Of a stretch of DNA of 43,475 bases, positions 3,282-27,655 are shown one piece after another (position 1 is the first letter of the stretch; the number at the start of each line of letters is the position of its first letter). Below the pieces are notes generated by a model. It searched no databases. It saw nothing but the letters and a program-made list of their open reading frames with translations, and was not told the DNA's origin. The DNA lies in contig JACQAL010000067.1 of NCBI GenBank assembly GCA_016195025.1, positions 1-43,475 of the forward strand, in the 5' to 3' direction. Origin of the DNA: Bacteroidota bacterium. Its GTDB lineage: Bacteria; Bacteroidota; Bacteroidia; Palsa-948. Both the position numbers and the translations under genes were made by a program.

Positions 3282-4349
3282 TTACATATCGTAATCCACC
3301 TTCACCACAGGCGTGAGCGGATGGCTCTGGCAGGTGAGAATATATCCTTCTTTAACTTCGGAATCGGTGAGCGCGAAGTTTTTATTCATGTGAACTTTTC
3401 CTTCGAGGAGTTTTGCCCTGCACGTTGCGCACACTGCGCCTTTGCAGGCGAAAGGGGCATCCACTCCATGCTCAATGGCTGCATCCAGAATTGCTTTTCC
3501 ATCGGAAGAAAGTTTAAAAGAAGTTTCGACTCCGTATTGTGAAACAGTTACCTGCGAAATTATTTTTTCAAGAAGTGGTGCAATGGTGGCGCCAACGGGT
3601 TCTGATGAAGAAGTGAAATACTCTATGTGAATTTTATTTTTTTCTGCCGCTAAATCTTCGAGAACTTTCCGCACGTTATCCATCATGGGTGTGGGACCAC
3701 AAATAAAGAATTCATTGTCCTTGCTCATGTCCACAAATTTTACGATGAGCAGTTGAACTTTTTCTCCAGTCATTATTCCCTTGAAAGTTTCGTCAATAGG
3801 ATGCTGCGGTTTGTCAAGAATGTAAAATAGTTTCAGCCGCTGAGAATTTTTATCCTTGAGTTCGTTCAGTTGCTTTCTGAAAATGGTTGCGTCTTCATTC
3901 AGGTTTCCGTAGAAAAGTAAAATGGTTGAGTTCGGCTCATCATGCAAAACAGTTTTGATGATGGAACACATCGGAGTGATTCCACTTCCGCCCGCGAACA
4001 GCACATAATTTTTTTTGTGATAGGGATTCATCGGGGAATGAAATCCTCCCATCGGAGTCATCACCTCCACTTCTTGTCGAACATTAAAATTATCATTGAT
4101 AAAGTTGGAACCTTTGCCCTCTTTCACGCGCTTGATTGCAACTCGTAATTCTCCTTCGTGAACTCCGCTGCAAATGGAATAACTCCTGCGGATTTCTTCT
4201 CCGCTTACAAAAAGTTTCAGCGTGAGGTATTGCCCCTGGATGAATTTATATTCTTCTTTCAGCGAAGCCGGAATTTCAAATGCAACCGACACGCAATCGG
4301 AAGTTTCCTTGCGCACATCAGATATTTTTAGTTTGTGGAACTTTGCCAT
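3282..4349 (-). CDS. paaE: PaaE-type NAD(P)H reductase of phenylacetyl-CoA epoxidase
   Basis: This 355-residue cytosolic flavo-iron-sulfur reductase passes electrons from NAD(P)H through FAD and a [2Fe-2S] cluster to the PaaABC di-iron oxygenase, which epoxidises phenylacetyl-CoA. Domains in order: FAD-binding barrel with RRSYSICSG (residues about 55-63), nucleotide-binding domain with FAGGSGITPM (about 118-127) and a late FICGPTPMM, and a plant-type ferredoxin with CKGAVCATC and a final Cys in ILTCQSHP. All four cluster cysteines are present. It starts 28 bases after the stop of the fused ferredoxin/small-subunit gene, and is therefore probably the last gene of the Hyf-like operon rather than part of paaABCD, which lies 7.4 kb away on the other strand. 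It could serve the membrane complex as well. Confidence 0.9.
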   Translation of the reverse strand: MAKFHKLKISDVRKETSDCVSVAFEIPASLKEEYKFIQGQYLTLKLFVSGEEIRRSYSICSGVHEGELRVAIKRVKEGKGSNFINDNFNVRQEVEVMTPMGGFHSPMNPYHKKNYVLFAGGSGITPMCSIIKTVLHDEPNSTILLFYGNLNEDATIFRKQLNELKDKNSQRLKLFYILDKPQHPIDETFKGIMTGEKVQLLIVKFVDMSKDNEFFICGPTPMMDNVRKVLEDLAAEKNKIHIEYFTSSSEPVGATIAPLLEKIISQVTVSQYGVETSFKLSSDGKAILDAAIEHGVDAPFACKGAVCATCRAKLLEGKVHMNKNFALTDSEVKEGYILTCQSHPLTPVVKVDYDM

Positions 4350-4377
4350 AGTGAAACGACAAAAATAAAATATTAAT

Positions 4378-5130
4378 TCATTTCCTTTTCCTAATCAACT
4401 CTAAAATTCCATTGATGAATGTAAGCGGATGAACAGGATTTCCCGGAACAAACAAATCAATTTTGTATTTGCTGAGAAAATTTCTGTTCAGCGCGGGACT
4501 GCCAGAAAAAATTCCTCCGCTGATGGCGTCCGTTCCTGCGAGGATGATAATTTTAGGTTCGGGAGTTGCATCGTAGCAAATCTGCAATGGTTCCGCCATG
4601 TTTTCTGAAATTGGTCCCGTGATTACAATTCCATCGGCATGGCGCGGAGAAGCCACAAACTCAATTCCGAAACGTCCCATATCAAAATTCACATTTCCGC
4701 AAGCGTTCAGTTCCAATTCACAACTGTTATCTCCTCCTGCAGAAACTTGTCTTAACTTTAATGAGCCGCTGAAGTATTCTGAGATTTCTTTGCGAATCAG
4801 GGAGGGATTTAATTCAATCGGCTTGTCCTCTCCTTCTTTAATGATTAATCGTTCTCTTTCGTTGGAAGAAATTTTATAGTCAGTCGTAAATTTTATTTTA
4901 TTCGGAAAAGCAAATGCGCACTCACCGCAAAAAGTGCATTTGCCCAAATCAATGCTCACAGGATTTTTTTCAATCGCATTGGTCGGACAAATTTCCATGA
5001 ATTCATCTTCGTTTATTTTTTCGGAATTGATAATTGGTCTGCCTCTGAAAATTCCCGGCATTTCCGCATTAGTTACATCGGGAATGTATTGTTTCCCCTG
5101 GTGAAATAATATTTTGAGGTTGTCTAACAT
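4378..5130 (-). CDS. Fused ferredoxin (HyfH-like) and small subunit (HyfI-like), iron-sulfur sites largely lost
   Basis: From the ATG at 5130 the product has 250 residues. Residues 1-80 look like a HyfH/HycF/NuoI ferredoxin. The cysteines of one site remain (Cys48, 65, 68 and 71 in EICPT and CTFCGEC), enough for one [4Fe-4S] cluster. The first three cysteines of the other site are absent and its last is Phe75. Residues 125-250 match HyfI/HycG/NuoB: RFGIEFVASPRHADGIVITG and AISGGIF are well kept. The proximal-cluster ligands CxxC, GAC and GCP read D-N-S-C (134-137), GTD (201) and GNP (231), so only Cys137 remains. It follows hyfG by 10 bases. An in-frame ATG at 5208 would overlap hyfG and is less likely. 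The product is part of the complex's peripheral arm. Confidence 0.88.
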   Translation of the reverse strand: MLDNLKILFHQGKQYIPDVTNAEMPGIFRGRPIINSEKINEDEFMEICPTNAIEKNPVSIDLGKCTFCGECAFAFPNKIKFTTDYKISSNERERLIIKEGEDKPIELNPSLIRKEISEYFSGSLKLRQVSAGGDNSCELELNACGNVNFDMGRFGIEFVASPRHADGIVITGPISENMAEPLQICYDATPEPKIIILAGTDAISGGIFSGSPALNRNFLSKYKIDLFVPGNPVHPLTFINGILELIRKRK

Positions 5131-5140
5131 AATTTCATTT

Positions 5141-6637
5141 TTACAAATCGTGTCCGCAATAAGATAAATTGAAACTTTTGTTGCACACGGGGAAATCAGA
5201 AATTTCATTCTGTCTCACTGCCAAAGCAAGCGCAAGCCAGTTGTGAAATGATGGGTCTTTCACTTTGTAATGTGCAAGTTCTCCTTTTTCATCGGTGATG
5301 GCGCAATGACAAATTTCTCCGCGCCAACCCTCCACGAGTGAAATACAAAAAGAATCCGGCTGAGAAAGCGATAAAGGATTCCGATTTTTATTTTGCTGCG
5401 GAATATTTTCTAAAAGTTTCCGAATGTATCCGATGGATTGTTTTATTTCTTCTTTTCTAATTTGCACGCGCGAATATACATCTCCGTGATTTTTTGTAAT
5501 GGGCTGATGATTGAATGAAGAATATAAATCGTGAGGATGTGATTTGCGCACATCTCTTTCTATTCCGCTCATCCTTGCCGACATTCCGACAGTGCCGATG
5601 GAAAAAGCATCCTTATTAGAAACTGTTCCTGTTTTTTCAAAGCGAGCAAGAACCGTTGAAAGCGAAAATGCTTCCTTGCAGATTTCATCAAAGTCATTTT
5701 CATAATCATGCAGAAGTTTTTCAAGAATATTTTTTAATTCATTGGTGAAAGGAAAATTATTTTTCCCTGCGCGGATTAATCCTTTTGCCAAACGGTTTCC
5801 GCACCAGATTTGAAAATAATTGATGAGTGGTGTCCGTAATCTTCCGAACACTGCACTTCCGAGTTGGTAAGCAATGTCGGTGCAGAGTGCGCTCAAATCT
5901 CCTGTGTGAATGGCGATGCGTTCCAGTTCAAGAGCGAGCGTGCGGGAAAATTTCAAATCATCTTCGGCTTTGTAATTACAGAGAGATTCCCAGAGATTTA
6001 CAAAAGCGGTTGTGTGTCCGGCAACGGTATCTCCGGCAATATTTTCTGCGAGAGTTGTTCGCTGTAAAAAAATTTTCTTTTCTAAAAAAAGTTTTTCAAT
6101 TCCACGATGCTGAAACCCCAATTGAATTTCGAGATGAAGGATTTGTTCCCCGTTGCAGATGAAACGAAAATGCCCGGGTTCAATCACGCCCGCATGAATG
6201 GGTCCCACACCGACTTCGTGCAGTTCTTCGCTGTCAATTTTATAGAACGGATAATTTCTACTGGAAGAATTTTTATCCGCCCTGTCAAATGGAAAACGAA
6301 CGGGCTTCAGCCATGGATGGTCAGAATATTTTATGCCAAAATTTTCGTGGAGTTCCCTTTCAAAAATGTGAAAGGCAAGGTTGTAATTTGTAAATGAAGG
6401 CAGCAGTTGATTTTGTTCAGCGTAAGAAGAGGAAACCAAAATAGTTCCTTCTTTATCATTTGCGATGCAGCAAAGCAATTTTATTTTTCCACCGGATGGA
6501 AATCCATAGTAGTTCACACAATGATTATTCGGTTCCTTCAGTAGAGAAACATTTTGTTCCAGAAATTTTTTATACTCCAAAGTTGGAATTGACGGCAAAG
6601 AAATCCGCTGGTTATTTTTTATTTCAATGTGGTTCAT
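5141..6637 (-). CDS. HyfG-like large subunit (NuoC-NuoD type) lacking the NiFe ligands
   Basis: This 498-residue protein has a NuoC-like N-terminal domain (FERELHENFGIKYSDHPWLKPVRFP, residues 92-116) joined to a NuoD/HycE-like domain (GPIHAGVIEPGHFRF, 145-159; LGFQHRGIEK, 173-182). In group 4 hydrogenases two CxxC motifs hold the NiFe centre. Here the first site reads NIAGDTVAGH (Ala201 and Thr204 in place of Cys), and the C-terminal site reads NLSYCGHDL (Ser492 and Gly495 in place of Cys). The protein ends right there, with no tail for maturation protease cleavage. It therefore cannot carry a normal NiFe site and resembles Ehr-type complexes. The start shares one base with the hyfF stop (TGATG), suggesting translational coupling. 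Confidence 0.9.
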   Translation of the reverse strand: MNHIEIKNNQRISLPSIPTLEYKKFLEQNVSLLKEPNNHCVNYYGFPSGGKIKLLCCIANDKEGTILVSSSYAEQNQLLPSFTNYNLAFHIFERELHENFGIKYSDHPWLKPVRFPFDRADKNSSSRNYPFYKIDSEELHEVGVGPIHAGVIEPGHFRFICNGEQILHLEIQLGFQHRGIEKLFLEKKIFLQRTTLAENIAGDTVAGHTTAFVNLWESLCNYKAEDDLKFSRTLALELERIAIHTGDLSALCTDIAYQLGSAVFGRLRTPLINYFQIWCGNRLAKGLIRAGKNNFPFTNELKNILEKLLHDYENDFDEICKEAFSLSTVLARFEKTGTVSNKDAFSIGTVGMSARMSGIERDVRKSHPHDLYSSFNHQPITKNHGDVYSRVQIRKEEIKQSIGYIRKLLENIPQQNKNRNPLSLSQPDSFCISLVEGWRGEICHCAITDEKGELAHYKVKDPSFHNWLALALAVRQNEISDFPVCNKSFNLSYCGHDL

Positions 6638-8064
6638 CAGCGGGGAAAATTTTTTATTGCTTCATTTATTAAATCCAGCATTTGCGGGGGCGGATTAAAT
6701 CCCAGATAAATTACCAAACCGAGTAAAATAAATTGAGAAGAGGATTCATGCCATTTTATATTTTCTACATTTTCATCCTTAAAATTTACAGCGGGAGTAA
6801 AAAGAAGTTTGAAAATATTTTTTCCAAATGCCCATATGATTACAGCGAGAAGAATTAAGATGATAACAAGAACAAAAATATAATGTGCTTCAAAGAGAGA
6901 ACGGAAAATTAAAAATTCGCTTATAAACATTCCTGAAGGGGGTATTGCAGCTGCACAAAGAAATCCGAACAGAAGTACGAGCGCACCTGCAAGGTTATAA
7001 TTGAAATAATTTCCTGTGTCAAAAATATTTTTGCTTTTATAAATCCGGTAAACCTGCCCAACCTGAAAAAACATTCCTGCTTTTGTGAAGGCGTGAAAAA
7101 TAATATGAAGGATGGCGGCATAATAACCGATTCCTCCTGCGGCAATTCCTAAAAAAATAATTCCCATGTGCTCCACGCTTGAATAAGCAAGCATTCGCTT
7201 GATGTTTTTCACCTTAAGCATATATACTGCCGCCACAAAAACCGAAAGCGCGCCCGCAATGATGAGCAGATTACTCGCCCACACGCGCAGCGAAGTTTGC
7301 GCAACCACTTCGTAAAAACGAAAAATGCCTATGAAGCCCACATTCATCAGTGCACTGGAAAAAAGCGCGCCCGCTGGCGAAGGCGCTTTATCCTTCGCGT
7401 CAATACCGGCAGTATACATCGGCACAAGTCCTGCTTTCACTGTCAAACCCGTGAACACGAAAATGAAAGCAAGCCGCATCCAGAATTCATTCAGCGAAGA
7501 AGCGTGTGCGAGAAGTGATGAAAAAGATAAATCGGTGCTGCCGCTCTGCTGGAGCGCAATGCTGAGAAAAAGAATTCCGATGAACACGAGCGTAATGCTG
7601 ATGGAGCAAACAAAAATATATTTCCAGGTTCCTTCGAGCGAACGGATATTTCTCCTGTGATAAACAAGTGCGGAAGCAGAAAGCGTGGTGAGTTCAATAA
7701 ATACCCAGGTGACTGCAATGTGAGAAGAAAGATACGCAGCGCTCATTGCCATAATTAAAACGACCATTGCAGAAAAATAAATGGCGCGCTGCCGCGGAAT
7801 TTCTTTATGCTTCAGAAAATAAATATAACTGTGATAAAATGCCGGAATGCTGATGATGCTGAGTGTTGCAAGAAGAATAATTGCCAGCGCGTCAATCCTG
7901 AAAAAACTAAGTTCTTCACTATGAAGATGCGTATAAGAATAAATCGTGAATGCCCACTGAAGAATCAGAAAAATAAAAACCAGAAAATAATTTATTGTAC
8001 GGTGTCGGTTGAAAAAAATTATTCCGCTGATAATTCCTGCCCCTGTTAAATAAATTGCAATCAT
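6637..8064 (-). CDS. HyfF-like antiporter-type membrane subunit
   Basis: This 475-residue multi-spanning protein belongs to the NuoN/MrpD/HyfF proton-channel family. The key charged residues are kept: the Glu of VFIELTTLS (Glu124) and the Lys of GLTVKAGLVPM (Lys210), both central to the proton path in homologues. Another polar patch is LKVKNIKRMLAYSSVEHMG. The gene begins directly after the hyfE stop with no spacer and overlaps hyfG by one base. In the complex it would sit in the membrane arm beside HyfB and move protons or sodium ions. Which ion, and whether it is driven by redox at all here, cannot be read from the sequence. Confidence 0.9.
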   Translation of the reverse strand: MIAIYLTGAGIISGIIFFNRHRTINYFLVFIFLILQWAFTIYSYTHLHSEELSFFRIDALAIILLATLSIISIPAFYHSYIYFLKHKEIPRQRAIYFSAMVVLIMAMSAAYLSSHIAVTWVFIELTTLSASALVYHRRNIRSLEGTWKYIFVCSISITLVFIGILFLSIALQQSGSTDLSFSSLLAHASSLNEFWMRLAFIFVFTGLTVKAGLVPMYTAGIDAKDKAPSPAGALFSSALMNVGFIGIFRFYEVVAQTSLRVWASNLLIIAGALSVFVAAVYMLKVKNIKRMLAYSSVEHMGIIFLGIAAGGIGYYAAILHIIFHAFTKAGMFFQVGQVYRIYKSKNIFDTGNYFNYNLAGALVLLFGFLCAAAIPPSGMFISEFLIFRSLFEAHYIFVLVIILILLAVIIWAFGKNIFKLLFTPAVNFKDENVENIKWHESSSQFILLGLVIYLGFNPPPQMLDLINEAIKNFPR

Positions 8065-8694
8065 TTAATCTCTCAGTGATTTTAATTGTTCCACATCACC
8101 GTCTTTAATTACATCGCCTATTTTATTCACAAAAATTCCAAGAAGAAGAACGCTTACAAAAATGTCAAGAAGAATTCCGGTATTCACGAGCATCGGCATT
8201 TCGCTTCCCACAGCAAGAGAAAGAATGAATACGCAATTTTCAAGAACGAGGTAGCCCATTACGTGCGTGATGAGTTTTCTTCGTGTGACAATGATGTACA
8301 ATCCGGTGAACAAAGTGGAGAGCGCAACTACAAAAAATATTTTGTTGATGCTTCCATCCACAATGGCGGAAGATAAAATATAGGAAAGCACTATGATAAC
8401 GGTGATGATGATGAGCGAAAAAAAATTATGGAGATAGGGCTCGGCTTCGCGGGTGATTTTATTTTTCCGGATTACATAATTCAAAAACCACGGCACGGCA
8501 ATGGTTTTGAAAATAATTGTCTCCAGCAGAATGAAAATAAGATTGAGCGGATTGATTTCAATCAGGTTGATAAATGCAATTCCGAAAAGAAGTATTCCCT
8601 GGAAAGCAAGAATTTTTATATAGGTGAGCAGTCGTTTAGCAATGCCGATATAAACGAGCGTAATAATAAAAGTTATGAGCAGAACGTTTGTCAT
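8065..8694 (-). CDS. HyfE-like membrane subunit (NuoK type)
   Basis: This 209-residue protein has about six hydrophobic segments and resembles HyfE, a NuoK/MrpC-related subunit found with HyfF and HyfB in group 4 hydrogenases. Seen features are NPLNLIFILLETIIFKTIAVPWFLN, with a conserved acidic residue in a membrane helix (LLETIIFKT), and LVLENCVFILSLAVG, with a second Glu in a helix (LEN). Both fit the buried glutamates of NuoK-type subunits. It is one base downstream of hyfC and abuts hyfF. It would link the quinone-site-like region around HyfC to the antiporter-like subunits. Confidence 0.87.
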   Translation of the reverse strand: MTNVLLITFIITLVYIGIAKRLLTYIKILAFQGILLFGIAFINLIEINPLNLIFILLETIIFKTIAVPWFLNYVIRKNKITREAEPYLHNFFSLIIITVIIVLSYILSSAIVDGSINKIFFVVALSTLFTGLYIIVTRRKLITHVMGYLVLENCVFILSLAVGSEMPMLVNTGILLDIFVSVLLLGIFVNKIGDVIKDGDVEQLKSLRD

Positions 8695-8695
8695 A

Positions 8696-9601
8696 TCAGA
8701 GCAAATTATTTTTCATCAGAAGAATTCCTATGAAAATTAAAAGTGCAACCGATGAAAGCGTAAAAATAAATTGCGGATTGTGATTCATTCGGAAACGCGC
8801 CATAAATGATTCAATCAATCCAATGATTATTGCAAATGCGATTTGCGTAGCAGCGAAAATTAAAATGTCAATATGAATCGGAAATCCTCCGAAGAAAAAA
8901 TTTGCTATAAGCGCGCCATACATTGCGAATTTCAAATTGCCTGTGAAAAGAATTAATCCCAAATCAAAACCGCTGTTGTCAAGAATCATCACTTCGTGAA
9001 TCATCGTGAGTTCAAGATGAGTTTTCGGGTCATCCACAGGCATGCGTGAATTTTCCACCATCGCGAGCATCACAAGCATGTATGTGCCCAATACACCAAT
9101 AGCATAAGAAATGTACGAACCAAAATGGAGCGATGAAAATAAATCCGCAAAAGAAATTTTTCCAGTCATCATCGCAAAACATCCTATGAGAATAAAAAGT
9201 GCCGGCTCGGCAAGCATGGAATAAAGCGCTTCGCGGCTAGCGCCCATTCCCTCAAAACTGCTTCCGGTATCAAGCGAAGAAACAATCATAAAGAATTTTC
9301 CGAGCGCGAGGATATAAATAAAAAATAAAAAGTCGCCCTCAAAAGAAATTATTCCTTTGTGATTTCCGAATGGAACGACAAGGATTGCCGCCAGCACTGA
9401 AGAAAAATAAATTGCCGGAGCTATTTGAAAAATGATGCTCGATGTTTTGCTGTATACTGCTCCTTTTTTCAATAGGCGGAAAATATCTTTAAGCGGCTGA
9501 AAAATTTCCGGACCTTTTCTTCCGGAAGCAATGCTTTTTGTACGGATAATAATTCCCGGGAAAAACAAAGAAGCGAAAATTATCAGAACGAAACTTGGCA
9601 T
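8696..9601 (-). CDS. HyfC-like membrane subunit (NuoH type)
   Basis: This 301-residue membrane protein is related to NuoH/HycD/HyfC, which anchors the peripheral arm to the membrane. Signatures: RKGPEIFQPLKDIFRLLKK after the first helix, and VENSRMPVDDPKTHLELTMIH in the loop that in complex I forms part of the quinone cavity. The charged residues of that loop are kept although the redox subunits have lost their cofactors. It lies one base after hyfB and one base before hyfE. Length and topology (about eight helices) are normal for the family. Confidence 0.9.
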   Translation of the reverse strand: MPSFVLIIFASLFFPGIIIRTKSIASGRKGPEIFQPLKDIFRLLKKGAVYSKTSSIIFQIAPAIYFSSVLAAILVVPFGNHKGIISFEGDFLFFIYILALGKFFMIVSSLDTGSSFEGMGASREALYSMLAEPALFILIGCFAMMTGKISFADLFSSLHFGSYISYAIGVLGTYMLVMLAMVENSRMPVDDPKTHLELTMIHEVMILDNSGFDLGLILFTGNLKFAMYGALIANFFFGGFPIHIDILIFAATQIAFAIIIGLIESFMARFRMNHNPQFIFTLSSVALLIFIGILLMKNNLL

Positions 9602-9602
9602 A

Positions 9603-11639
9603 TCACATATTCTTTAAAAATGAAAACAATGAATTGATTACATCGGCAATGAGCGGAAAAAATATTACGAGCAAAATAAAAATCACACCGTATAAAACAT
9701 AATGCTGAGCATTGCCGCTCTGAAGAAATGAAAACCTGTTGAGAAAGCTTTTCAGCAGGAAAATAATTGTGTCTATGAATTTTTCTTCCAGTTTGTCTTC
9801 AGCGTGCGTCTCATAAAAAACCGGCTTGGGAAAAATTTCATCTATGAGTTTTTCTTTTTTATGAATGGATAAAACCGGTTTTGCAAGTTTGCGGTAGGAG
9901 CGGATAAAGGAATTTGCGGTGTATTGCATTCTGCCTGCATCGCCCGCATAGCCGCAGCCCCAGGTTGAAGAAAAGGAAATTTCTTTTTCTCTTGTGATTT
10001 GTCTTCTCACTAAAAAAATAAAACTGCAAAGCAAAATAAATCCTGCCGAACAAATTCCGATGAGCGTCATTGTATTTATTGTGCTGTCAAAAACCCCTAT
10101 TCCCATAGGAGAATTTATCCTGGAAGTAAACATTGCGATTGGCGCGGAAAGCAACCGGACAAAAAATTCGGGAAAGATTCCAATAGAAATAATTAAAGCC
10201 AAAACGAGATACATCGGAAATAAATTTCCTGCAGAAACTTCCTGCGCTTCGATGGAAAGCGAATTCCGGGGAGTTCCGAGAAAAACAATTCCGAACGCTT
10301 TTGTGAAGCAGAGCAGCGCAAGCCCGCCTATGAGCGCAAGCCCGAGAACGGAAAACACAAAAGATAAAACGGAAATATTTTCCGCGCCCGCAATTCCTTT
10401 AAACAAACCCGAATAAATTAAAAACTCCGAAACAAATCCGTTAAAAGGCGGAAGCCCGCAAATTGCCAGTGCAGAAAGCAAAAATAAAATTCCCGTGTGA
10501 GGCATTCTCTTAATAAGCCCTCCAAGTTGTTCCACATTCAGCGTTTGAGCTTTCAGGTAAACATTTCCCGCGCAGTAAAACAAAAGCGATTTGAAGAGAG
10601 AGTGATTCAGCACGTGAAGCAATCCGCCTGCAAATCCGAGCGAAGCGAGAAGAAAATTATTTGTCCCGATACCGATGCATCCAAGTCCGATTCCGATTCC
10701 AATGATTCCGATATTTTCAATGCTGTGATATGCGAGAAGTTTTTTCAAGTTATGCTGAACAATGGCGAGCATCACTCCGTAAATTCCTGAAATCACCGAG
10801 ATGAAAAGAATAAAATATCCAACGAAAGTAAAATCCGTATGAATAAAAAAAAGCATTCTCAGGATTCCATAAATCCCCATCTTGATAATAATTCCCGACA
10901 TCACTCCGGAAATATGCGAAGGCGCAACAGGATGTGCATATGGAAGCCACGTGTGAAATGGAACAAATCCTGCTTTGAAAGCAAATCCGAAAAAGAAGCA
11001 GATAAAAAGAATTATCCCGGTTAATGCGGATTTTTCCGAAGTGAAATTCCGGATGGAAGAAAAATCGTACGAGCCGGTTTGCGAAGCAATCCATATAAAC
11101 GCGATGGTGAGAAAAAGAACTCCGATGTGCGACTGAATGAGAAAATTAATTCCTGCTTTGAGTGTAGCACGTTTTGTGTGTTCAAAAATTACCAGCACAA
11201 AAGAAGAAAGCGTCATCACTTCCCATATAATAAGGAAGAGCAAACTATTTTGCACGCAGCAGATAGCAAGCAATGAAGTGTGCATCAGTATATATGAAAT
11301 CCAATGCAATGAAAGATTTGATTTCTGCTCTTCGTATTTTTTCATATAATGAATTCCATAAAGAGCGCCAGTGACAGCCGTAAAATTGATAACAAGAATG
11401 AACCAGGCGGAAAGCGCGTCAATGCGAAGAGAAATATTTCCCAAAAAATTATTTCCCGGAAAAATCATGTCAAAAGAATTTCCTGAAAGCACATCAACTG
11501 CAAGAGCCGATGTTGCAACGGCATTCAAAAAGACGAAGAGAAAACAAATTCTGGATTTCAAACCGGCAGGAAGAAGCGGGATGAAAATTATTCCTGCAAG
11601 AGTTATAACTAATGTCAGAAGCAAAAAATTACTGTACAT
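9603..11639 (-). CDS. HyfB-like antiporter-type membrane subunit (NuoL type)
   Basis: This 678-residue protein is the first gene of the operon. It is a long NuoL/MrpA-like ion-channel subunit with about 16 hydrophobic segments. The channel residues are present: Glu140 in LIIWEVMTLSS and Lys222 in GFAFKAGFVPFHTWLPYAHP, plus AYHSIENIGIIG further on. The C-terminal part holds the STWGCGYAGDAGRMQYTANSF segment typical of HyfB/HycC and a final membrane helix (YVLYGVIFILLVIFF). No HyfD homologue is found, so the complex has two antiporter-like subunits (HyfB, HyfF) rather than three. The start at 11639 follows a candidate promoter at 11689-11722. Confidence 0.92.
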   Translation of the reverse strand: MYSNFLLLTLVITLAGIIFIPLLPAGLKSRICFLFVFLNAVATSALAVDVLSGNSFDMIFPGNNFLGNISLRIDALSAWFILVINFTAVTGALYGIHYMKKYEEQKSNLSLHWISYILMHTSLLAICCVQNSLLFLIIWEVMTLSSFVLVIFEHTKRATLKAGINFLIQSHIGVLFLTIAFIWIASQTGSYDFSSIRNFTSEKSALTGIILFICFFFGFAFKAGFVPFHTWLPYAHPVAPSHISGVMSGIIIKMGIYGILRMLFFIHTDFTFVGYFILFISVISGIYGVMLAIVQHNLKKLLAYHSIENIGIIGIGIGLGCIGIGTNNFLLASLGFAGGLLHVLNHSLFKSLLFYCAGNVYLKAQTLNVEQLGGLIKRMPHTGILFLLSALAICGLPPFNGFVSEFLIYSGLFKGIAGAENISVLSFVFSVLGLALIGGLALLCFTKAFGIVFLGTPRNSLSIEAQEVSAGNLFPMYLVLALIISIGIFPEFFVRLLSAPIAMFTSRINSPMGIGVFDSTINTMTLIGICSAGFILLCSFIFLVRRQITREKEISFSSTWGCGYAGDAGRMQYTANSFIRSYRKLAKPVLSIHKKEKLIDEIFPKPVFYETHAEDKLEEKFIDTIIFLLKSFLNRFSFLQSGNAQHYVLYGVIFILLVIFFPLIADVINSLFSFLKNM

Positions 11640-11688
11640 AAATCAAAAAATAAAGTGCAAATCACTGCGTCAAAAACATTTCGCGAGC

Positions 11689-11722
11689 CAAAGATAAGTT
11701 TTATTGATTTCATAGATGACAA
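11689..11722 (-). promoter_or_regulatory. Candidate promoter of the Hyf-like/paaE operon
   Basis: Read on the minus strand, TTG (11722-11720) is followed after 23 bases by TATCTTTG (11696-11689), a full match to TAnnTTTG. The spacer is slightly longer than the usual 19-21. The -7 box lies 49 bases before the hyfB ATG. The 138-base gap also has to hold the promoter of paaA on the other strand, for which only a weak TATATTTA candidate is visible, so the two units may share regulation. Confidence 0.5.
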
Positions 11723-11777
11723 AAATCATAGTTGAGATTTCATTCGTATATTTACCTTCGCTACAATAAATTTCAAA

Positions 11778-12713
11778 ATGGAAAATATTAATTTTGAAGA
11801 CAACTTCGAATCCAAACTTTCGCGCAATGAAAATATTGAGCCGAAGGATTGGATGCCCGAAGATTACCGCAAGGCAAACATCCGCCAGATTTCACAGCAC
11901 GCGCATTCCGAAATCATTGGTATGCTTCCCGAAGGAAACTGGATTACACGCGCGCCTTCGCTGAGAAGAAAAATGGTGCTGCTCGCTAAAGTGCAGGATG
12001 AAGCGGGGCACGGGCTTTATCTTTATTCCGCTTGTGAAACTCTGGGAATTTCCCGCGAAGAAATTCTTGACCAGCTTTATACCGGCAAAGCAAAATATTC
12101 TTCCATCTTTAATTATCCTACGCTCACGTGGGCAGACATGGGCGCAATCGGCTGGCTCGTGGATGGCGCGGCAATTATGAATCAGGTGATGCTGCAGCGA
12201 ACTTCTTATGGTCCCTATGCGCGCGCGATGGTTCGCATTTGCAAAGAAGAAAGTTTTCATCAGCGCCAGGGATATGAAATTATGTGCACGCTCGCAAAAG
12301 GTTCTCCCGCACAAAAAGAAATGGCGCAGGATGCTTTGAACCGCTGGTGGTGGCCAACGCTGATGATGTTCGGTCCGCCCGATAAAGAATCAATTCACAC
12401 AGCGCAGGCGGTGAAATGGAAAATTAAGCGCGAGACCAACGACCAGTTGCGCCAGCGATTCGTAAACCAAACGGTTCCGCAGGGAGAAATGATTGGCTTG
12501 ACTTTCCCCGATGAAAAATTAAAATGGAATGAATCGAAAAAGAATTATGATTTTGGTGAACCGAACTGGGAAGAATTTCAGAATGTGATTCACGGAAACG
12601 GGCCTTGCAATAAAGAAAGATTGAGCACACGCGTTACAGCACACAAAGAAGGAAAATGGGTTCGCGAAGCATTGGAAGCATACGCAAACAAAAAGAAAAA
12701 AGTCGCAGCATAA
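11778..12713 (+). CDS. paaA: Phenylacetyl-CoA epoxidase catalytic subunit PaaA
   Basis: This 311-residue di-iron oxygenase subunit forms, with PaaC, the epoxidase that converts phenylacetyl-CoA and O2 to ring-1,2-epoxyphenylacetyl-CoA. The iron ligands expected from E. coli PaaA are all in place: Glu45 (AHSEIIG), Glu75 and His78 (DEAGH), Asp129 (WLVDG), Glu158 and His161 ([10 protein letters not shown]). The length is normal. It is first in paaABCD, divergent from the Hyf-like operon. Genes for the ligase paaK, isomerase paaG and hydrolase paaZ are not in the window. Confidence 0.96.
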
Positions 12714-12725
12714 AAATATTTTACT

Positions 12726-13010
12726 ATGTCAGACCAGGGAATAGTTTGGGAAGTTTTCGTGCAGAAAAAACCGGGACAGCCGTTCGTTCACTGCGGAAAT
12801 GTTCACGCGCACGATGCCGAACTTGCATTGCAAAACGCCCGCGACCTTTACGCGCGAAGAAATGAAGGCACTGCGCTTTGGGTAGTTCCCGCAAAATATA
12901 TTGTGGCTTCCTCGCCCGAAGATGTCGGTCCTTTCTTTGATCCGGCAAACGAAAAAATTTATCGTCACCCGACTTTCTATACTGTACCGGAAGGAATCAG
13001 CCATATGTAA
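12726..13010 (+). CDS. paaB: Phenylacetyl-CoA epoxidase subunit PaaB
   Basis: This 94-residue small subunit is of normal PaaB length, with IVWEVFVQKKPGQPFVHCG near the start and LWVVPAKYIVASSPED near the end, as in known PaaB. It has no cofactor site; PaaB is thought to bridge the PaaAC core with the PaaE reductase. It starts 12 bases after paaA. PaaE itself is encoded 7.4 kb away on the other strand, so the usual paaABCDE order is broken. Confidence 0.95.
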   Translation: MSDQGIVWEVFVQKKPGQPFVHCGNVHAHDAELALQNARDLYARRNEGTALWVVPAKYIVASSPEDVGPFFDPANEKIYRHPTFYTVPEGISHM

Positions 13011-13060
13011 AATGTAAGATGGCAAAAGGCAGATGGATTTTTTTCTATGACTAAAAACTA

Positions 13061-13819
13061 ATGACTAATAAGGAAGCACTTTTCAATTATTGTCTCCGCC
13101 TTGGCGATAACAATTTAATTCTCGGCCATCGCTTGTCTGAATGGACTGGGCGCGGACCGATGCTTGAAGAAGAAATGGCATTGTGCAACATTGCGCTTGA
13201 TTTGCTCGGACAGGCAAATTCTTTTTTGCAATACGCGGCAAAAGTCGAAGCGAAAGGACGCAGCGAAGATGATTTGGCTTATTTGAGAAATGATCGGGAA
13301 TTTTTTAACACGCTTCTTGCCGAACATCCGAATGGTGATTATGCTTTCACGATCATGCGGCAATTTTTAATGAGTGCGTTTGATTTTTATTTTTATGACG
13401 AGCTGAAAAAATCTTCTGACGAAACTCTTGCGGGAATTGCTGCTAAGGCACATAAAGAAATTACTTACCATCTCCGGCATTCTTCCAATTGGGCAGAAAG
13501 ATTGGGCGATGGAACCGAAGAAAGTCATTCGAGAATTCAAAATGCTTTGGATGAACTCTGGAGATTCACAGCCGAACTTTTTGAAATGAATGAAGTGGAT
13601 GGACTTCTTTTGAAAGAAAAAATTTCTGTGGATTTAAAATCCATCAAACCAAAATGGGAAAAACTTGTGAATGAAGTTTTACAGCGCGCAACTCTGAAAA
13701 TTCCTGTGAATACTTTTATGCAACGCGGCTCCCGCGATGGAAAACATACCGAACATCTCGGCTATCTTCTTGCCGAAATGCAGCACCTGCACCGAACACA
13801 TCCCGGAGTGCAGTGGTAA
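13061..13819 (+). CDS. paaC: Phenylacetyl-CoA epoxidase structural subunit PaaC
   Basis: This 252-residue ferritin-like subunit is related to PaaA but without a full iron site. Recognisable segments are DNNLILGHRLSEWTGRGP, EEEMALCNIALDLLGQA, DREFFNTLLAEHPNGDYAFTIMRQF and a C-terminal HTEHLGYLLAEMQ. It supports PaaA and helps bind the CoA substrate. The gap after paaB is 50 bases. The start codon itself lies in a run of 7-bp units (ATGACTA, AAAACTA, ATGACTA at 13047-13067); the first ATG in that run meets a stop after four codons, so 13061 is the start. Confidence 0.95.
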   Translation: MTNKEALFNYCLRLGDNNLILGHRLSEWTGRGPMLEEEMALCNIALDLLGQANSFLQYAAKVEAKGRSEDDLAYLRNDREFFNTLLAEHPNGDYAFTIMRQFLMSAFDFYFYDELKKSSDETLAGIAAKAHKEITYHLRHSSNWAERLGDGTEESHSRIQNALDELWRFTAELFEMNEVDGLLLKEKISVDLKSIKPKWEKLVNEVLQRATLKIPVNTFMQRGSRDGKHTEHLGYLLAEMQHLHRTHPGVQW

Positions 13820-13872
13820 TATGACGAATGTCATTCTGAAAATCTCCTTTTTTATTCGTAACTTTAACTTGA

Positions 13873-14337
13873 ATGAATACGGACGTTAAATATTCACGAA
13901 AAGAAATTCTGAATCTTCTTTCTGAAATTCCAGATCCGGAAATTCCTGTTATTAATATTCATGAGCTTGGGGTTTTGCGTGATGTTATTGTGAACGAAAA
14001 GGAAGTGGAAATAATTATTACTCCTACTTACTCCGGTTGCCCTGCAATGAAGCAAATCGAAAATGATATTGTGTCGAAACTAAAAGAAAACGGAATTGAA
14101 AATGTGAAAGTGAAATCGATTTTTTCTCCAGCGTGGACGACCGATTGGATTACCGATGAAGCAAAAGAAAAACTCAGAAAGTTTGGAATTGCTCCGCCAA
14201 CTCAAAGAAAAGTGAAATGTCCGCACTGCAACTCCGAAAACACAGAAGTAATTTCTCAGTTTGGCTCAACGGCTTGCAAAGCGCTTTACCGGTGCAATGA
14301 TTGCAAAGAGCCGTTTGATTATTTTAAATGTCATTAA
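13873..14337 (+). CDS. paaD: PaaD, iron-sulfur carrier-type maturation protein
   Basis: This 154-residue protein has an N-terminal MIP18/DUF59-type domain (LLSEIPDPEIPVINIHELGVLRDV, then PTYSGCPAM) and a C-terminal zinc-ribbon-like part: CPHCNSENTEVISQFGSTACKALYRC, CNDCKEPFDYFKCH. PaaD is needed for active epoxidase and is thought to act in iron-sulfur or metal-centre assembly. It starts 53 bases after paaC; that gap contains a short ATGAC/GTCAT palindrome. Its stop codon overlaps the stop of the convergent universal stress gene, the two sharing TTAA at 14334-14337. Confidence 0.94.
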   Translation: MNTDVKYSRKEILNLLSEIPDPEIPVINIHELGVLRDVIVNEKEVEIIITPTYSGCPAMKQIENDIVSKLKENGIENVKVKSIFSPAWTTDWITDEAKEKLRKFGIAPPTQRKVKCPHCNSENTEVISQFGSTACKALYRCNDCKEPFDYFKCH

Positions 14338-17148: not shown

Positions 17149-18402
17149 TCAGTTGTTTTTTGTATTCGAAAGAAGAGAATTAAAAAAGGCGAAGAAAACA
17201 ACTCCCGCCTGGGTATTTAGCATGGATTCAAATAAAAAATTTATTATGATTAATAAAATAAAACTAATAGTAAAAATATTTTTTCCGTATGTACTGGAAT
17301 AAAAGGGAATAAAAATCATCATCAATAATGAAACTTCACCCAAAATACCGAGTGTTGCAAAAGTCTCAATGAATTGATTGTGCGGATTTAGATTCTCTTC
17401 TATCGCCAAAGTATTTTTTTTTTCCTGATACTTTTTTATAAGTTCTTGTTTTATATCTCCAGTGCCAATGCCAAATAAAAAATTTCCTCTTATCAGTTCC
17501 AGCGATTCTTTAATAATAAAATATCGTACCACAACATTTTCTCTTGAAGAAACATTGACGGAATCCAGGGGTGTTTTTAAAAACTCAATTACAGGAGCAA
17601 ACCTCGGAAATTTATTCAGGGTATAAATTGTTCCGCAAAAAATTACAGTTGCAAAAACAAAAAAAAGAATTACTCTTTTATACAAGATAAAATAATAAGA
17701 AATGATTGTTCCCGTAACAATGATAACCGCTGCAATTCCCGTTCGAGAACCGAGATTAAATACATAAGCAAGTAAAACAAGAATAAAAATTACCGAGAAC
17801 CATTTTTTTGAAAAACTCTTTTGCAAAAAATTTTTATATGATTCGGATTTTACTTTATAAAACCGAAAATAAATTATAATACAAATAGAAAAAATTGCAT
17901 ACATGGATGCATAAGAAGGATGAAGGAACAAAGTAAAATTTGAATAATAAAAATAATCCACATTATATCGCAAAGACCAATAGATATTAAAAATAAAACA
18001 TGACAGCGCAGCAACAATATTTCCAAGAACGAATGCAAAAAATATTATTCGATGGTTTTTCTGAAAATTTTCTTTGTCGGAAAGTATAAGAATAGGAAAC
18101 AGCAACAACGAAAATTTTACTTCCAAATCAAAAAGTCCTTCGGAAATATTTTCTGTATAAATCATTCCTATTACATGCAATAAGTAAAAAAATATCAGAA
18201 GAAAAAAAATACGGGAGCGGATAAGAGAAATTATTTTTTCTTTTACGTTACCATCAAAAAGCCACAACAAAACCCAAATTACAATAAGAGGTGGAATAAT
18301 TTTTTCGGAAAGAGGAAGAAAAAAAATTATGAGCAGAACTACATATAAAAGAATCTTATTTAGAGAAGAGCAATTAGCCAAATTAATATTCAGCAAACTC
18401 AT
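17149..18402 (-). CDS. O-antigen ligase/polymerase family membrane protein (WaaL/Wzy-like)
   Basis: This 417-residue protein has about ten to twelve hydrophobic segments and a large loop near residues 285-345 with RENVVVRYFIIKESLELIRGNFLFGIGTGDIKQ and EENLNPHNQFIETFATLG. The NPHNxFxxxxxxxG pattern is typical of the O-antigen ligase (Wzy_C/WaaL) family, which moves undecaprenyl-linked glycan to an acceptor. It is last in the polysaccharide operon and overlaps the aminotransferase gene by 4 bases. A second polymerase-like protein is encoded at 25309-26667, so this one may be the ligase and that one the repeat-unit polymerase. Confidence 0.85.
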   Translation of the reverse strand: MSLLNINLANCSSLNKILLYVVLLIIFFLPLSEKIIPPLIVIWVLLWLFDGNVKEKIISLIRSRIFFLLIFFYLLHVIGMIYTENISEGLFDLEVKFSLLLFPILILSDKENFQKNHRIIFFAFVLGNIVAALSCFIFNIYWSLRYNVDYFYYSNFTLFLHPSYASMYAIFSICIIIYFRFYKVKSESYKNFLQKSFSKKWFSVIFILVLLAYVFNLGSRTGIAAVIIVTGTIISYYFILYKRVILFFVFATVIFCGTIYTLNKFPRFAPVIEFLKTPLDSVNVSSRENVVVRYFIIKESLELIRGNFLFGIGTGDIKQELIKKYQEKKNTLAIEENLNPHNQFIETFATLGILGEVSLLMMIFIPFYSSTYGKNIFTISFILLIIINFLFESMLNTQAGVVFFAFFNSLLSNTKNN

Positions 18403-19568
18403 TGTAAATTTTTAGAAAATAAATCTTTCACGAGTTTCAGCGTTTCCATTTTTTTGCAGAAAGCAAAACGAACGTGGTTGGTGTGGCTGATCTTTTTTGA
18501 GTAGAATGAAAAGCCCGGAACGGTTGCTACACGTGTTTTCTGAATTAGTTTCCGGCAAAAATCAAAATCAGTCTTCGCTTTCATTTTCTTGTTCAGGTTG
18601 CTCACATCGGCAATCATATAATAGGCGCCTTTGGGAAGAATAGGTTTGAAGTCGTACTGGAGTAGTGTATCGTATAAAAACTTTCTTGCCTCGTTATAAT
18701 GCTGCCGAAGGTTGTGATAATAGGTTGCGGGAAAATTCATTGCTTCAACGGCAGCATGTTGTAATGGAGTAGGAGCACCTACGGTCATAAAATCATGCAC
18801 TTTCCGGATTCGCTTCGTTATTTTTTCATTCGCAATTGCCCAGCCCACGCGCCATCCGGTTACAGAATAAGTTTTCGAAATGGAGTTGATTGTAATTGTC
18901 CTGTCTTTCATTCCTGGCAAAGAAGCAAGCGAAATATGTTTTTCTCCATCGTATAAAATATGCTCGTAGATTTCATCGGTGATTGCGTAAGTGTTCCACT
19001 TGTTGCAGAGTTCAGCAATAAATTTCAATTCCTCTTCAGAAAAAACTTTTCCGGTAGGATTATTGGGTGTATTGATTACAATTGCTTTTGTCCGTTTGTT
19101 AAATGCTTTGGCAAGTTCTTTTTTATCAAAACTCCAGTCGGGCGAATGAAGCGTTACATAGCGCGGTGTGGCTCCGGATAAAATTCCATCCGGTCCATAA
19201 TTTTCGTAGAAAGGTTCAAAAATTATTATTTCATCTCCGGGATTAATAATGGCGCGCAATGAAGCAAGCATCGCTTCGGTTGCTCCGCAGGTTACTGTTA
19301 TATCCGTATCGGGATTGCATTTTATTTTGTTGTAACTCCAGGCTTTTTTGCTGATGGCTTCTCTTAATTCCGGCTCTCCGAATGTTACAGGATATTGATT
19401 GAAATTATTTTTAATGGCATGAATTGCCGCCTGTTTTATTTCTTCCGAAGCATCAAAATCAGGAAAGCCCTGCGAAAGATTAATTCCATTCATTGAATCG
19501 CTGATGCGCGTCATTTCGCGGATTACCGATTCGGTAAATGTTTCTGTTATGCGGGAAAGTTCTTTCAT
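18399..19568 (-). CDS. PLP-dependent class I/II aminotransferase
   Basis: This 389-residue aspartate-aminotransferase-fold enzyme resembles the methionine/kynurenine-type group. Motifs: GINLSQGFPDFDA near the start, VTCGATEAMLAS, NTPNNPTGKVFSEEE, and ITINSISKTYSVTGWRVGW with the PLP-binding Lys. It is cytosolic, with a substrate among 2-oxo acids and amino acids not defined by sequence. It lies inside the polysaccharide operon (22 bases after the DegT-type gene, 4-base overlap with the ligase), which is unusual for a general amino acid enzyme. It may simply ride on the operon's promoter or supply an amino acid for glycan decoration. Confidence 0.9.
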   Translation of the reverse strand: MKELSRITETFTESVIREMTRISDSMNGINLSQGFPDFDASEEIKQAAIHAIKNNFNQYPVTFGEPELREAISKKAWSYNKIKCNPDTDITVTCGATEAMLASLRAIINPGDEIIIFEPFYENYGPDGILSGATPRYVTLHSPDWSFDKKELAKAFNKRTKAIVINTPNNPTGKVFSEEELKFIAELCNKWNTYAITDEIYEHILYDGEKHISLASLPGMKDRTITINSISKTYSVTGWRVGWAIANEKITKRIRKVHDFMTVGAPTPLQHAAVEAMNFPATYYHNLRQHYNEARKFLYDTLLQYDFKPILPKGAYYMIADVSNLNKKMKAKTDFDFCRKLIQKTRVATVPGFSFYSKKISHTNHVRFAFCKKMETLKLVKDLFSKNLQ

Positions 19569-19590
19569 GCGAATATTGCGAATGAGAAAA

Positions 19591-20691
19591 TTATTTTTTA
19601 TAAAAACTTCTCACAACTTTTATTACATAATCCACTTCGTGATCATCTATTTCTACGCACATGGGCAACGAACAAACTTCGCGGCTCAATGCTTCTGTTT
19701 CGGGGAATCCGAGGTCTTTCAAGTTTAAACCTTCGTGCGTGTAATAGGGCTTGCGGAATTGAGTGAGCACTTCCACTCCGTTTTTTTTCATGTATTCAGA
19801 AAATTTATTTCCTTCTTTTGCTCTCAGCGTGTAATTCTGATAGGCATGGTCAAATTCTTTTTTATCATAATGCGGCAATAAAAGATTCGGCAAATCAGAA
19901 AATGCTTTTTTATATTTGTCAGCAATAGATTTTCTTCGCTTAATCCATTTTCTCATATAGCGTAACTTGACATCTAAAAATGCTGCTTGTAAATTATCAA
20001 GCAGGCAAGTAAATCCATGTCCGTGATATTCTCCGGTTTCTCTTTCTTCACCGTTAAACCGCATTCTTCGTGCATAGATAGCAACCTCTTCATCGTTGGT
20101 TGTAATAGCTCCACCATCTCCGTATCCGCCTAAAATTTTGAAAGGATAAAAACTAAAACATCCGGTAAGTCCCCATGCGCCTGCGCCTTTTCCATTAATG
20201 CTTGCGCCCAAACTCTGGCAGGCATCTTCAACAACTTTCAAATTATATTTTCCGGCAATCTTCATTACCGCGGGCATATCTGCCATCCATCCGCTGAGGT
20301 GAACGGGCATGATTGCTTTTGTTTTTTTTGTAATTGCTTTTTCGATTTTTGAAACATCAATGTTAAAATCTTTTGTTACATCCACAAGAACCGGAGCTGC
20401 ACCAACATTCACAATAGCCGAACAGGATGCCACGAATGTATGTGCAGGAACAATCACTTCGTCTCCCATTCCAACTCCGGCAGCTCGCAGAGAAAGATGA
20501 AGCGCATCGTATCCGCTGTTCACTCCAACGGCATATTTTGTTCCGACAAACTTTGCAAGATTTTTTTCAAAACTTTTTAAATGCTCTCTGTCTATCAAAT
20601 CACCTTTTGACATTACTTTGAAATAAACAGCATCAAGTTCGGGTTTCAATGCTTGATATAATTTTCCCGGATTTACAAATCGAACCTTCAT
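19591..20691 (-). CDS. DegT/DnrJ/EryC1/StrS-family sugar aminotransferase
   Basis: This 366-residue PLP enzyme of the sugar aminotransferase family typically turns a keto group on a nucleotide sugar into an amino group. Motifs: KYAVGVNSGYDALHLSLRAAG, GDEVIVPAHTFVA, VVEDACQSLGASINGKGAGAWG, and CFSFYPFKILGGYGDGGAITT, where Lys would hold PLP. Length is normal. It follows the E1 beta gene by 14 bases. The expected nucleotide-sugar 4,6-dehydratase or oxidase is not in this window, so the substrate would have to be made elsewhere. Confidence 0.92.
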   Translation of the reverse strand: MKVRFVNPGKLYQALKPELDAVYFKVMSKGDLIDREHLKSFEKNLAKFVGTKYAVGVNSGYDALHLSLRAAGVGMGDEVIVPAHTFVASCSAIVNVGAAPVLVDVTKDFNIDVSKIEKAITKKTKAIMPVHLSGWMADMPAVMKIAGKYNLKVVEDACQSLGASINGKGAGAWGLTGCFSFYPFKILGGYGDGGAITTNDEEVAIYARRMRFNGEERETGEYHGHGFTCLLDNLQAAFLDVKLRYMRKWIKRRKSIADKYKKAFSDLPNLLLPHYDKKEFDHAYQNYTLRAKEGNKFSEYMKKNGVEVLTQFRKPYYTHEGLNLKDLGFPETEALSREVCSLPMCVEIDDHEVDYVIKVVRSFYKK

Positions 20692-20705
20692 AATTTATTA
20701 TTGAT

Positions 20706-21710
20706 TTAATTTGCGATTACCTTATCAGAACAAAAATTTTTCACACGACTTACTATTTTTTCTGCATTGATATAATATGCCTGTTCCAGCGAATTACTTG
20801 CCGCTGCCGGTGCATCCGGAATATTTATTCTTGTTATTGATTTTCCTTCGAGCGATGTTTTTTCAGCAAGAAGTGCAACCACTTCTGCTGAGAACCCGCA
20901 AAACTTCCATGCGCTGTCAATGATTGCTATTCTTTGTGTTTTCTCAACCGAGTCGAAAATTATTTTTTCATCCAGCGGCTTCAGCGTTCTTATATCAATC
21001 ACTTCAGCATCTATTCCTTCGAGGGCGAGCGTTTCTGCGGCTTTCAAAGTTTCCTGCGCGAGATGCGAAAACGAAACAAGAGTAATGTCTTTTCCTTTTC
21101 TTCTGATGATCCCTTTTCCGAGAGGAATTTCATACATTTTTTCCGGAACGCTTTCTTCAAAACCATATAAACTTCTGTTGTCAATAAACACAACGGGATT
21201 CGGGTCATTGATTGCTGCAATCAACATGCCTTTTACATCATAAGGAGTGGAAGGAGCAATCACTTTCAATCCGGGAACATGCGCAAAAATTGTGTGCAGC
21301 GCTTGTGAGTGTTGCGCTGCCTGTTCGCCACCGCCATTCACAATCAGCCAGAAAACCACAGGCACATTTGACGCGCCACCGCTCATGTAATGCCAGTTGG
21401 CAGCTTCATTGATGATGGGGTCAAGAGCATAAACGGCAAAATCGGTTCGCGGATGAACTACAATTGTTTTCATTCCGGCAATTGCAGCGCCCACTGCGGC
21501 TCCGGTAGTTGCATTTTCTGAAACGGGTGTGTCAAGTACGCGCGCTTCGCCAAACTTCTCCAACAAATCCTTGCAGGTGTTCCCAACATACCACGGACTC
21601 ATCACCCCTTGCCCTATGAGCATTACGGAAGGATCGCTCTCCAGCATTTGCGTAAGTGCTTCGTTGATGGCGAGAGCGAAATTTAATTTTCTTTCTTTAT
21701 TTAAAGACAT
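20706..21710 (-). CDS. Thiamine-diphosphate-dependent E1 component, beta subunit
   Basis: This 334-residue protein resembles the beta subunits of pyruvate or acetoin dehydrogenase E1 (transketolase pyrimidine domain plus C-terminal domain). Seen: LNFALAINEALTQMLESDPSVMLIGQGV, SENATTGAAVGAAIAGMKTIV, DIRTLKPLDEKIIFDSVEKTQR. Such subunits pair with an alpha subunit to bind TPP and decarboxylate a 2-oxo acid. The gene overlaps the alpha gene by 14 bases. No E2 or E3 gene is next to it, and the setting is a polysaccharide operon, so a normal dehydrogenase complex is doubtful. Confidence 0.9.
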   Translation of the reverse strand: MSLNKERKLNFALAINEALTQMLESDPSVMLIGQGVMSPWYVGNTCKDLLEKFGEARVLDTPVSENATTGAAVGAAIAGMKTIVVHPRTDFAVYALDPIINEAANWHYMSGGASNVPVVFWLIVNGGGEQAAQHSQALHTIFAHVPGLKVIAPSTPYDVKGMLIAAINDPNPVVFIDNRSLYGFEESVPEKMYEIPLGKGIIRRKGKDITLVSFSHLAQETLKAAETLALEGIDAEVIDIRTLKPLDEKIIFDSVEKTQRIAIIDSAWKFCGFSAEVVALLAEKTSLEGKSITRINIPDAPAAASNSLEQAYYINAEKIVSRVKNFCSDKVIAN

Positions 21711-22674: not shown

Positions 22675-22682
22675 CTGGAATT

Positions 22683-23291: not shown

Positions 23292-23300
23292 AACTAAAAT

Positions 23301-25297: not shown

Positions 25298-25308
25298 GAA
25301 GAAATTAA

Positions 25309-26667: not shown

Positions 26668-26673
26668 TTTGAA

Positions 26674-27648: not shown

Positions 27649-27655
27649 ATCATTT

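Follow-up and report, generated by a model that had tools for sequence, protein, structure and literature searches.

A hydrogenase-derived membrane complex of Bacteroidota with fixed proton-path residues and replaced proximal-cluster ligands

The sequence studied is a contig of a Bacteroidota bacterium of the Palsa-948 lineage (GCA_016195025.1, contig JACQAL010000067.1, positions 1-43,475, forward strand), and this whole stretch of 43,475 nucleotides is called the window below. Its minus strand carries, at 3282-11639, seven closely packed genes, HyfB, HyfC, HyfE, HyfF, HyL, HyS and PaaE (Table 1). The best sequence or fold matches of HyfB, HyfC, HyL and HyS are found in the E. coli formate hydrogenlyase (FHL)/Hyf systems and in the membrane-bound hydrogenase (MBH) of P. 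furiosus. An initial annotation of this DNA had proposed a hydrogenase-like complex with a conserved ion pump and a dismantled redox arm. We report here that the pump residues are indeed fixed, and that a single clade has exchanged the ligands of the proximal cluster (N2) after the nickel-iron (NiFe) site had already gone. The open reading frame (ORF) listed for HyS extends to 5208; translation probably begins at M27 (base 5130), as it does in most relatives.

In the membrane arm, E140, K222, K253, K299 and E405 of HyfB and E124, K210 and K289 of HyfF are invariant in all relatives examined, and the charged loop of HyfC (E183-R186-D190-D191-H195-E197-H202-E203) is conserved in the same set. 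This bears out what had been proposed for the Glu/Lys pairs 140/222 and 124/210 and for the loop, of which E183, D190, E197, H202 and E203 are invariant. The features that mark an ion-translocating arm in the complex I superfamily, the antiporter Glu/Lys residues and a NuoH-like charged loop, are thus present, and the proton-path residues are invariant alike in complexes that have lost N2 and in those in which it is intact. Two HyfB cysteines, C444 and C562, are 99% conserved in the N2-lost clade, and C562 also occurs in all N2-intact sisters examined. Most relatives have two copies of the HyfB gene (49 loci), and nine with sufficient flank, the nearest congener included, have one, as does the window locus.

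The head of the complex was compared with active hydrogenases. In a hidden Markov model alignment with E. coli FHL subunit 5 and P. furiosus MbhL, the four NiFe-ligand positions of HyL are occupied by A201, T204, S492 and G495. HyL stops right after the second NiFe motif, so that the C-terminal extension removed in NiFe maturation is absent. Two marks of group 4 NiFe hydrogenases, the paired NiFe CxxC motifs and the Hyp maturation genes, are therefore missing, the latter judged from HypD, which was not found in the window's own genome. HyL also lacks the quinone-site Tyr of the complex I subunit NuoD, G202 taking this position in an alignment to a 49 kDa subunit. The large-subunit fold is kept in the HyL model (m88a375650aec), which matches FHL subunit 5 (7z0s_E) with a template modelling (TM) score of 0.81.

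In HyS, an alignment to MbhJ and FHL subunit 7 places D160, C163, D227 and N257 at the four ligand positions of N2, leaving C163 as the only one of the four cysteines, and HyS thus lacks the N2 ligands found in NuoB of complex I. The readings of the initial annotation on these points (Ala201, Thr204, Ser492 and Gly495 in the large subunit, one of four proximal-cluster cysteines in the small one) agree with these alignments, as does its view that cofactor loss goes deeper than the NiFe site alone, the Ehr-like (energy-converting hydrogenase related) sisters of the complex having kept N2. The small-subunit fold is kept in the HyS model (m70fd3b418d8f), which matches MbhJ (6cfw_J) with a root-mean-square deviation of 1.9. 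This retained fold would be consistent with an N2 cluster that still assembles on Asp/Cys/Asp/Asn ligands, yet we consider this very improbable: one cysteine is left, even that one is Ala or Tyr in a few members, and we know of no [4Fe-4S] cluster held by one thiolate out of four. Such a cluster would be an extreme form of that in MBS, the sulfane sulfur reductase of P. furiosus, whose catalyst is a proximal cluster with only three cysteine ligands (PMC7684303).

To place these losses in time we turned to the relatives of the complex. A genome-wide scan recovered HyL at 64-73% identity from at least 80 loci in Bacteroidota, Ignavibacteria and one Spirochaetia bin, the HyL of the nearest congener being 78% identical, and the order of the subunit genes is conserved across these relatives. 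Carriers include two cultivable species, Flavihumibacter profundi and Arcticibacter eurypsychrophilus. Searches of the phylum also gave remoter complexes (HyL and HyS identities mostly 40-63%), every one of which is without NiFe cysteines and shows nearly the same replacements (A/S-T/S-S-G). The NiFe loss therefore belongs to the whole Ehr-like family; it is evidently older than the N2 loss and common to the sisters that keep N2. At the N2 positions themselves the distribution is bimodal, with D[CAY][DE]N in 78 sequences, CCCC in 35 rows (three complex I NuoB included) and no intermediates. Among the 78 N2-lost sequences D160 and N257 are 100% fixed and D227 is 99% fixed, and all 32 of the N2-intact relatives have Cys; the sequence pattern of N2 replacement is clearly far beyond chance. 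Position-specific comparison pairs C160D, G162S, C227D and C257N of HyS with the loss. When the change from N2 to no N2 was counted on a tree of HyL, a different subunit, it occurred once, and the N2-lost clade received 97% bootstrap and 95% Shimodaira-Hasegawa-like approximate likelihood ratio test (SH-aLRT) support in a tree without long branches.

Whether such a head could simply be decaying was a concern, as cofactor ligands are lost and the locus has one HyfB copy fewer than most relatives. However, the substitutions are fixed within the clade, where no homologue keeps the cysteines, the reading frames are intact, synteny is conserved, and identity stays at 64-78% across families and phyla. 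The ratio of nonsynonymous to synonymous substitutions (dN/dS) against the nearest congener is 0.04-0.08 for HyS, HyL, HyfE, HyfF and HyfC and 0.13 for HyfB, values that are approximate because dS is saturated, and the six core genes are evidently under strong purifying selection. A non-functional remnant or pseudogene is thus rejected and can be regarded as practically untenable. An intact paralogue, which would have weakened the case of the initial annotation, is likewise missing: among the hits found in the window's own genome none has intact hydrogenase ligands, and the other NuoD/NuoB-like genes look to be of complex I type. These include two further NuoD-like genes (G000:C40 and G000:C60), apparently from two complex I type systems.

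Table 1. Features of the complex and of its gene neighbourhood (window coordinates; N2-lost and N2-intact refer to the state of the proximal-cluster ligands in relatives)
Feature	Position	Strand	Basis or remark
HyfB-like antiporter subunit (NuoL/M type)	9603..11639	-	PF00361; NCBIfam hydrogenase 4 subunit B, 508 bits
HyfC-like (NuoH type) coupling subunit	8696..9601	-	PF00146; top PDB match FHL subunit 4
HyfE-like membrane subunit	8065..8694	-	NCBIfam hydrogenase 4 membrane subunit, below cut-off; syntenic in relatives with sufficient flank
HyfF-like antiporter subunit	6637..8064	-	PF00361
HyL, NuoC+NuoD-like large subunit, no NiFe cysteine	5141..6637	-	PF00329+PF00346
HyL C161	6155..6157	-	Invariant in N2-lost clade; also in nearer N2-intact sisters
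HyL A201-G-D-T204, replacing first NiFe CxxC	6026..6037	-	Alignment
HyL C252, gained with N2 loss	5882..5884	-	Sequence comparison
HyL C443-H444-C445, both Cys gained with N2 loss	5303..5311	-	Sequence comparison
HyL S492-Y-C-G495, replacing second NiFe CxxC	5153..5164	-	Alignment
HyS, ferredoxin domain fused to NuoB-like domain	4378..5130	-	PF00037+PF01058
HyS C74 / C91 / C94 / C97, one intact ferredoxin-type [4Fe-4S] site	4918..4989	-	76/76 N2-lost sequences
HyS D160-N-S-C163, replacing N2 CxxC	4720..4731	-	Alignment
HyS D227, replacing third N2 Cys	4528..4530	-	Alignment
HyS N257, replacing fourth N2 Cys	4438..4440	-	Alignment
PaaE (phenylacetyl-CoA epoxidase reductase)	3282..4349	-	TIGR02160, 391 bits, slightly under cut-off
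paaABCD, divergent from the complex operon	11778..14337	+	Pfam/NCBIfam; borders the slot occupied by the complex here and by a SulP gene in congeners

The redox arm is, however, reduced rather than empty, and 'dismantled' overstated the case, because one [4Fe-4S] site is invariant and new conserved HyL cysteines came with the N2 loss. The ferredoxin domain of HyS has exactly four invariant cysteines, the fourth of motif 1 and three of motif 2, which we take to be the N6b (medial) ligand set under the NuoI ligand assignment, the N6a set being gone. In sisters with two ferredoxin clusters both ligand sets are complete. Some N2-intact sisters (L125, L129, L134, L155-L162) have lost the outer, N6a-like ferredoxin cluster and kept N2. 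By analogy with complex I geometry, the remaining [4Fe-4S] cluster would be too distant from the catalytic cavity for ordinary tunnelling, because N2 is absent, unless another cofactor bridges the gap. The cysteines gained in HyL are the obvious candidates for holding one. Of these, C443 is invariant in 84 N2-lost HyL sequences, as is C161, and C445 and C252 have rare exceptions; C252, C443 and C445 are missing from N2-intact sisters, except for C443 in 2 of 30. C40 of HyL is likewise new with the N2 loss by position-specific comparison, and even the deepest N2-lost rows (L121, L150) already carry the new HyL cysteines together with the HyS replacements.

The main rival to the reading we favour below builds on these residues: the electron path would have been moved, not cut, with C161, C252, C443 and C445 of HyL, together with the HyS aspartates, forming the ligands of a new cluster or metal; this would accept electrons from the remaining [4Fe-4S] and continue to drive pumping. 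The presence of the cysteines throughout the N2-lost lineages, their near absence from N2-intact sisters and the invariance of the ferredoxin cysteines all point this way. Yet the gain is a single evolutionary event, HyL has about 20 clade-specific positions among which the cysteines may be hitchhikers, and two of the cysteines have exceptions. Moreover, C443 and C445, which lie in a strand of the HyL model, would be near C161 and C252 in space by strand topology, in a model whose residues 111-175 have low confidence. We regard a relocated electron path as unlikely.

The neighbouring genes bear on other possible roles. PaaE follows HyS after 28 bases, in the same orientation, and stands directly downstream of the complex also in genomes G004 and G005, an arrangement that would suit a dedicated donor feeding NAD(P)H electrons to the complex. 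Synteny in congeners led us to reject this candidate, which we rate as very improbable. PaaE is present once in the window's own genome; where congeners are without the complex, a SulP anion transporter occupies the same slot, flanked by paaE and paaABCD in G002 and G003 and adjoined by paaE in G001; and every other lineage examined has an operon for the complex that does not include PaaE. PaaE is therefore probably not a subunit of the complex, and the partnership raised in the initial annotation is not supported. No conserved dedicated redox enzyme was found beside the operon, the only recurring neighbours being regulators. Many N2-intact operons carry a regulator with helix-turn-helix (HTH) and PTS_EIIA domains, and a divergent Crp/Fnr-family regulator stands upstream of HyfB1 in 12 N2-lost loci (e.g. 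L051:1192-1899) and is absent at the window locus. At three loci a small glycine cleavage H-like protein, apparently without the usual lipoyl-lysine motif, is encoded upstream of HyfB1 (L049:1222-1629). Elsewhere in the window are an ORF of 1495 amino acids without a Pfam match (36302-40789) and a polysaccharide/O-antigen-type cluster (17149-28930) with a Wzy_C ligase, a DegT aminotransferase, a methyltransferase and unmatched proteins.

The SulP gene seen in the congeners turned out to be part of a wider association. Among 38 family-carrying genomes searched (22 SulP genes in total), SulP lies beside or within the Ehr operon in 10; these cases come from at least three family-level lineages, and their SulP types are dissimilar. 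In G070 (L220:6939-9140) the operon itself contains a SulP gene, placed between HyL and HyS and bearing a PTS-EIIA-like extension. Of 50 genomes searched in the N2-lost clade, 2 have their sole SulP gene divergent from HyfB1 (2 of 33 SulP matches). Both figures are unlikely by chance, by a rough binomial estimate over lineages that are not all independent. Of the genomes with the complex, the window's own and G005 lack SulP entirely, and the only SulP of G004 is of a different type and lies elsewhere; a simple history would be that complex and SulP were clustered in the ancestor and were then lost differentially in the genus of the window. We also observed SulP adjoining or inside Ehr-like operons, often with an HTH and PTS_EIIA regulator, at L168, L169, L174, L179, L180 and L220-L224, and, in three congeners (L203, L204, L205), a SulP gene in or beside the paaE/paaABCD slot that corresponds to window positions 3282-11778.

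This linkage also lends some plausibility to a head that works as a non-redox catalyst, for example in gradient-driven CO2 hydration as in DAB2 and cyanobacterial NDH-1MS. A Zn site built from the gained Cys and Asp residues would then supply bicarbonate, as SulP transporters can. There is precedent both for DabB, which resembles NuoL and is coupled to a Zn site of Cys2His type with an Asp-Arg dyad (PMC13144422), and for SulP proteins as bicarbonate transporters (PMC10880623), and SulP stands in the same slot in congeners. However, the SulP link predates the gain of the cysteines. Ordinary beta-carbonic anhydrases are found in all congeners examined, with or without the complex. Their presence or absence was tried as a proxy for a CO2 role and was uninformative, since every genome has one. 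We consider CO2 hydration quite unlikely.

Taken together, the complex is, as judged from its sequence, a working and selected member of the complex I/group 4 hydrogenase superfamily with Ehr-like ancestry. We tentatively prefer a reading in which its pump arm operates independently of the classical electron route and serves ion and anion homeostasis as a gated or secondary ion translocator. With the NiFe site already gone, the N2 ligands were replaced once, together, by Asp-Cys-Asp-Asn. As a result no electron relay of a known kind would reach the catalytic cavity, and protons, quinone or polysulfide would therefore not be reduced by known routes. The head would carry a polar or metal site made of D160/D227/N257 and the HyL cysteines, the single remaining [4Fe-4S] may be redox-sensing or structural, and the conformation of the HyL/HyS head would gate the membrane arm, which may move H+ or Na+ either in a secondary, Mrp-like exchange or driven by the gradient. 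The genomic link between the family and SulP anion transporters makes a physiological role in ion and anion homeostasis probable. It is also possible, if on balance somewhat unlikely, that electron transfer to the pump was abandoned and that the head is a non-redox unit (e.g. Zn/Asp/Cys, CO2/anion-handling) or a conformational regulator co-opted with SulP.

Several observations weigh against a pump freed from electron transfer. The invariant four-cysteine ferredoxin site suggests that electrons are still handled, and a substitute cofactor could be bound by the new HyL cysteines. In the N2-intact sisters alone is the SulP link strong; it is weak in the N2-lost clade, so function may have shifted. 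Furthermore, as the N2 loss was one event, the changes that occurred with it are beyond statistical test.

Ehr complexes are defined by missing Ni/Fe ligands, and their function is called unknown or suspected (PMC6349859, PMC10284858). The window complex shares with them the group 4-like subunit set, the Mrp-type, antiporter-like membrane subunits and the absence of NiFe cysteines, so the Ehr resemblance noted in the initial annotation is well founded. It differs from the Ehr-like sisters recovered here, which retain the cysteines of N2 and in many cases both ferredoxin clusters, in having no N2 and one ferredoxin cluster. By descent it would thus be an Ehr member, divergent in the proximal-cluster ligands that are typical of its sisters and lie outside the published definition. 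MBS also has a hydrogenase-derived head without a NiFe site on a pumping arm, and shows that catalysis can pass to the proximal cluster once NiFe is partly lost, but it keeps three Cys on that cluster and two NiFe Cys (PMC7684303), whereas the window complex keeps one and none, respectively. E. coli FHL/Hyf and P. furiosus MBH are active NiFe hydrogenases with an intact proximal cluster, neither of which the window complex has, and its HyL is without the maturation extension. Complex I/NDH-1, of the same superfamily, has likewise lost NiFe, but the genomic NuoB rows compared keep four N2 Cys, unlike HyS, and its quinone Tyr is replaced by Gly202 in HyL. The DAB2/MpsAB CO2 systems combine a NuoL-like subunit with a possibly non-redox head and belong to the same physiological toolkit as SulP; the window complex, however, has no DabA-like subunit (no match to PF10070 in a Pfam scan of the operon proteins), and carbonic anhydrase activity would be a hypothesis for it. 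No superfamily member without N2 ligands was found described in the literature searched, with the main subscription papers on Ehr outside reach, and novelty is therefore unproven.

It has long been asked how complex I couples its head to the movement of ions in the membrane arm. Complex I, FHL, MBH and MBS, the characterised members compared in this work, all retain the proximal cluster, unlike the window clade, and the window complex probably uses its pump in a way unlike any characterised family member. Since the ligands were lost in one step in a clade of about 80 genomes, the proton-path residues are fixed and the N2-bearing sisters serve as natural controls, this clade makes it possible to ask whether the arm can be driven or gated without electrons reaching the cavity. 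The unexpected linkage to SulP provides, in addition, a concrete physiological lead for Ehr complexes.

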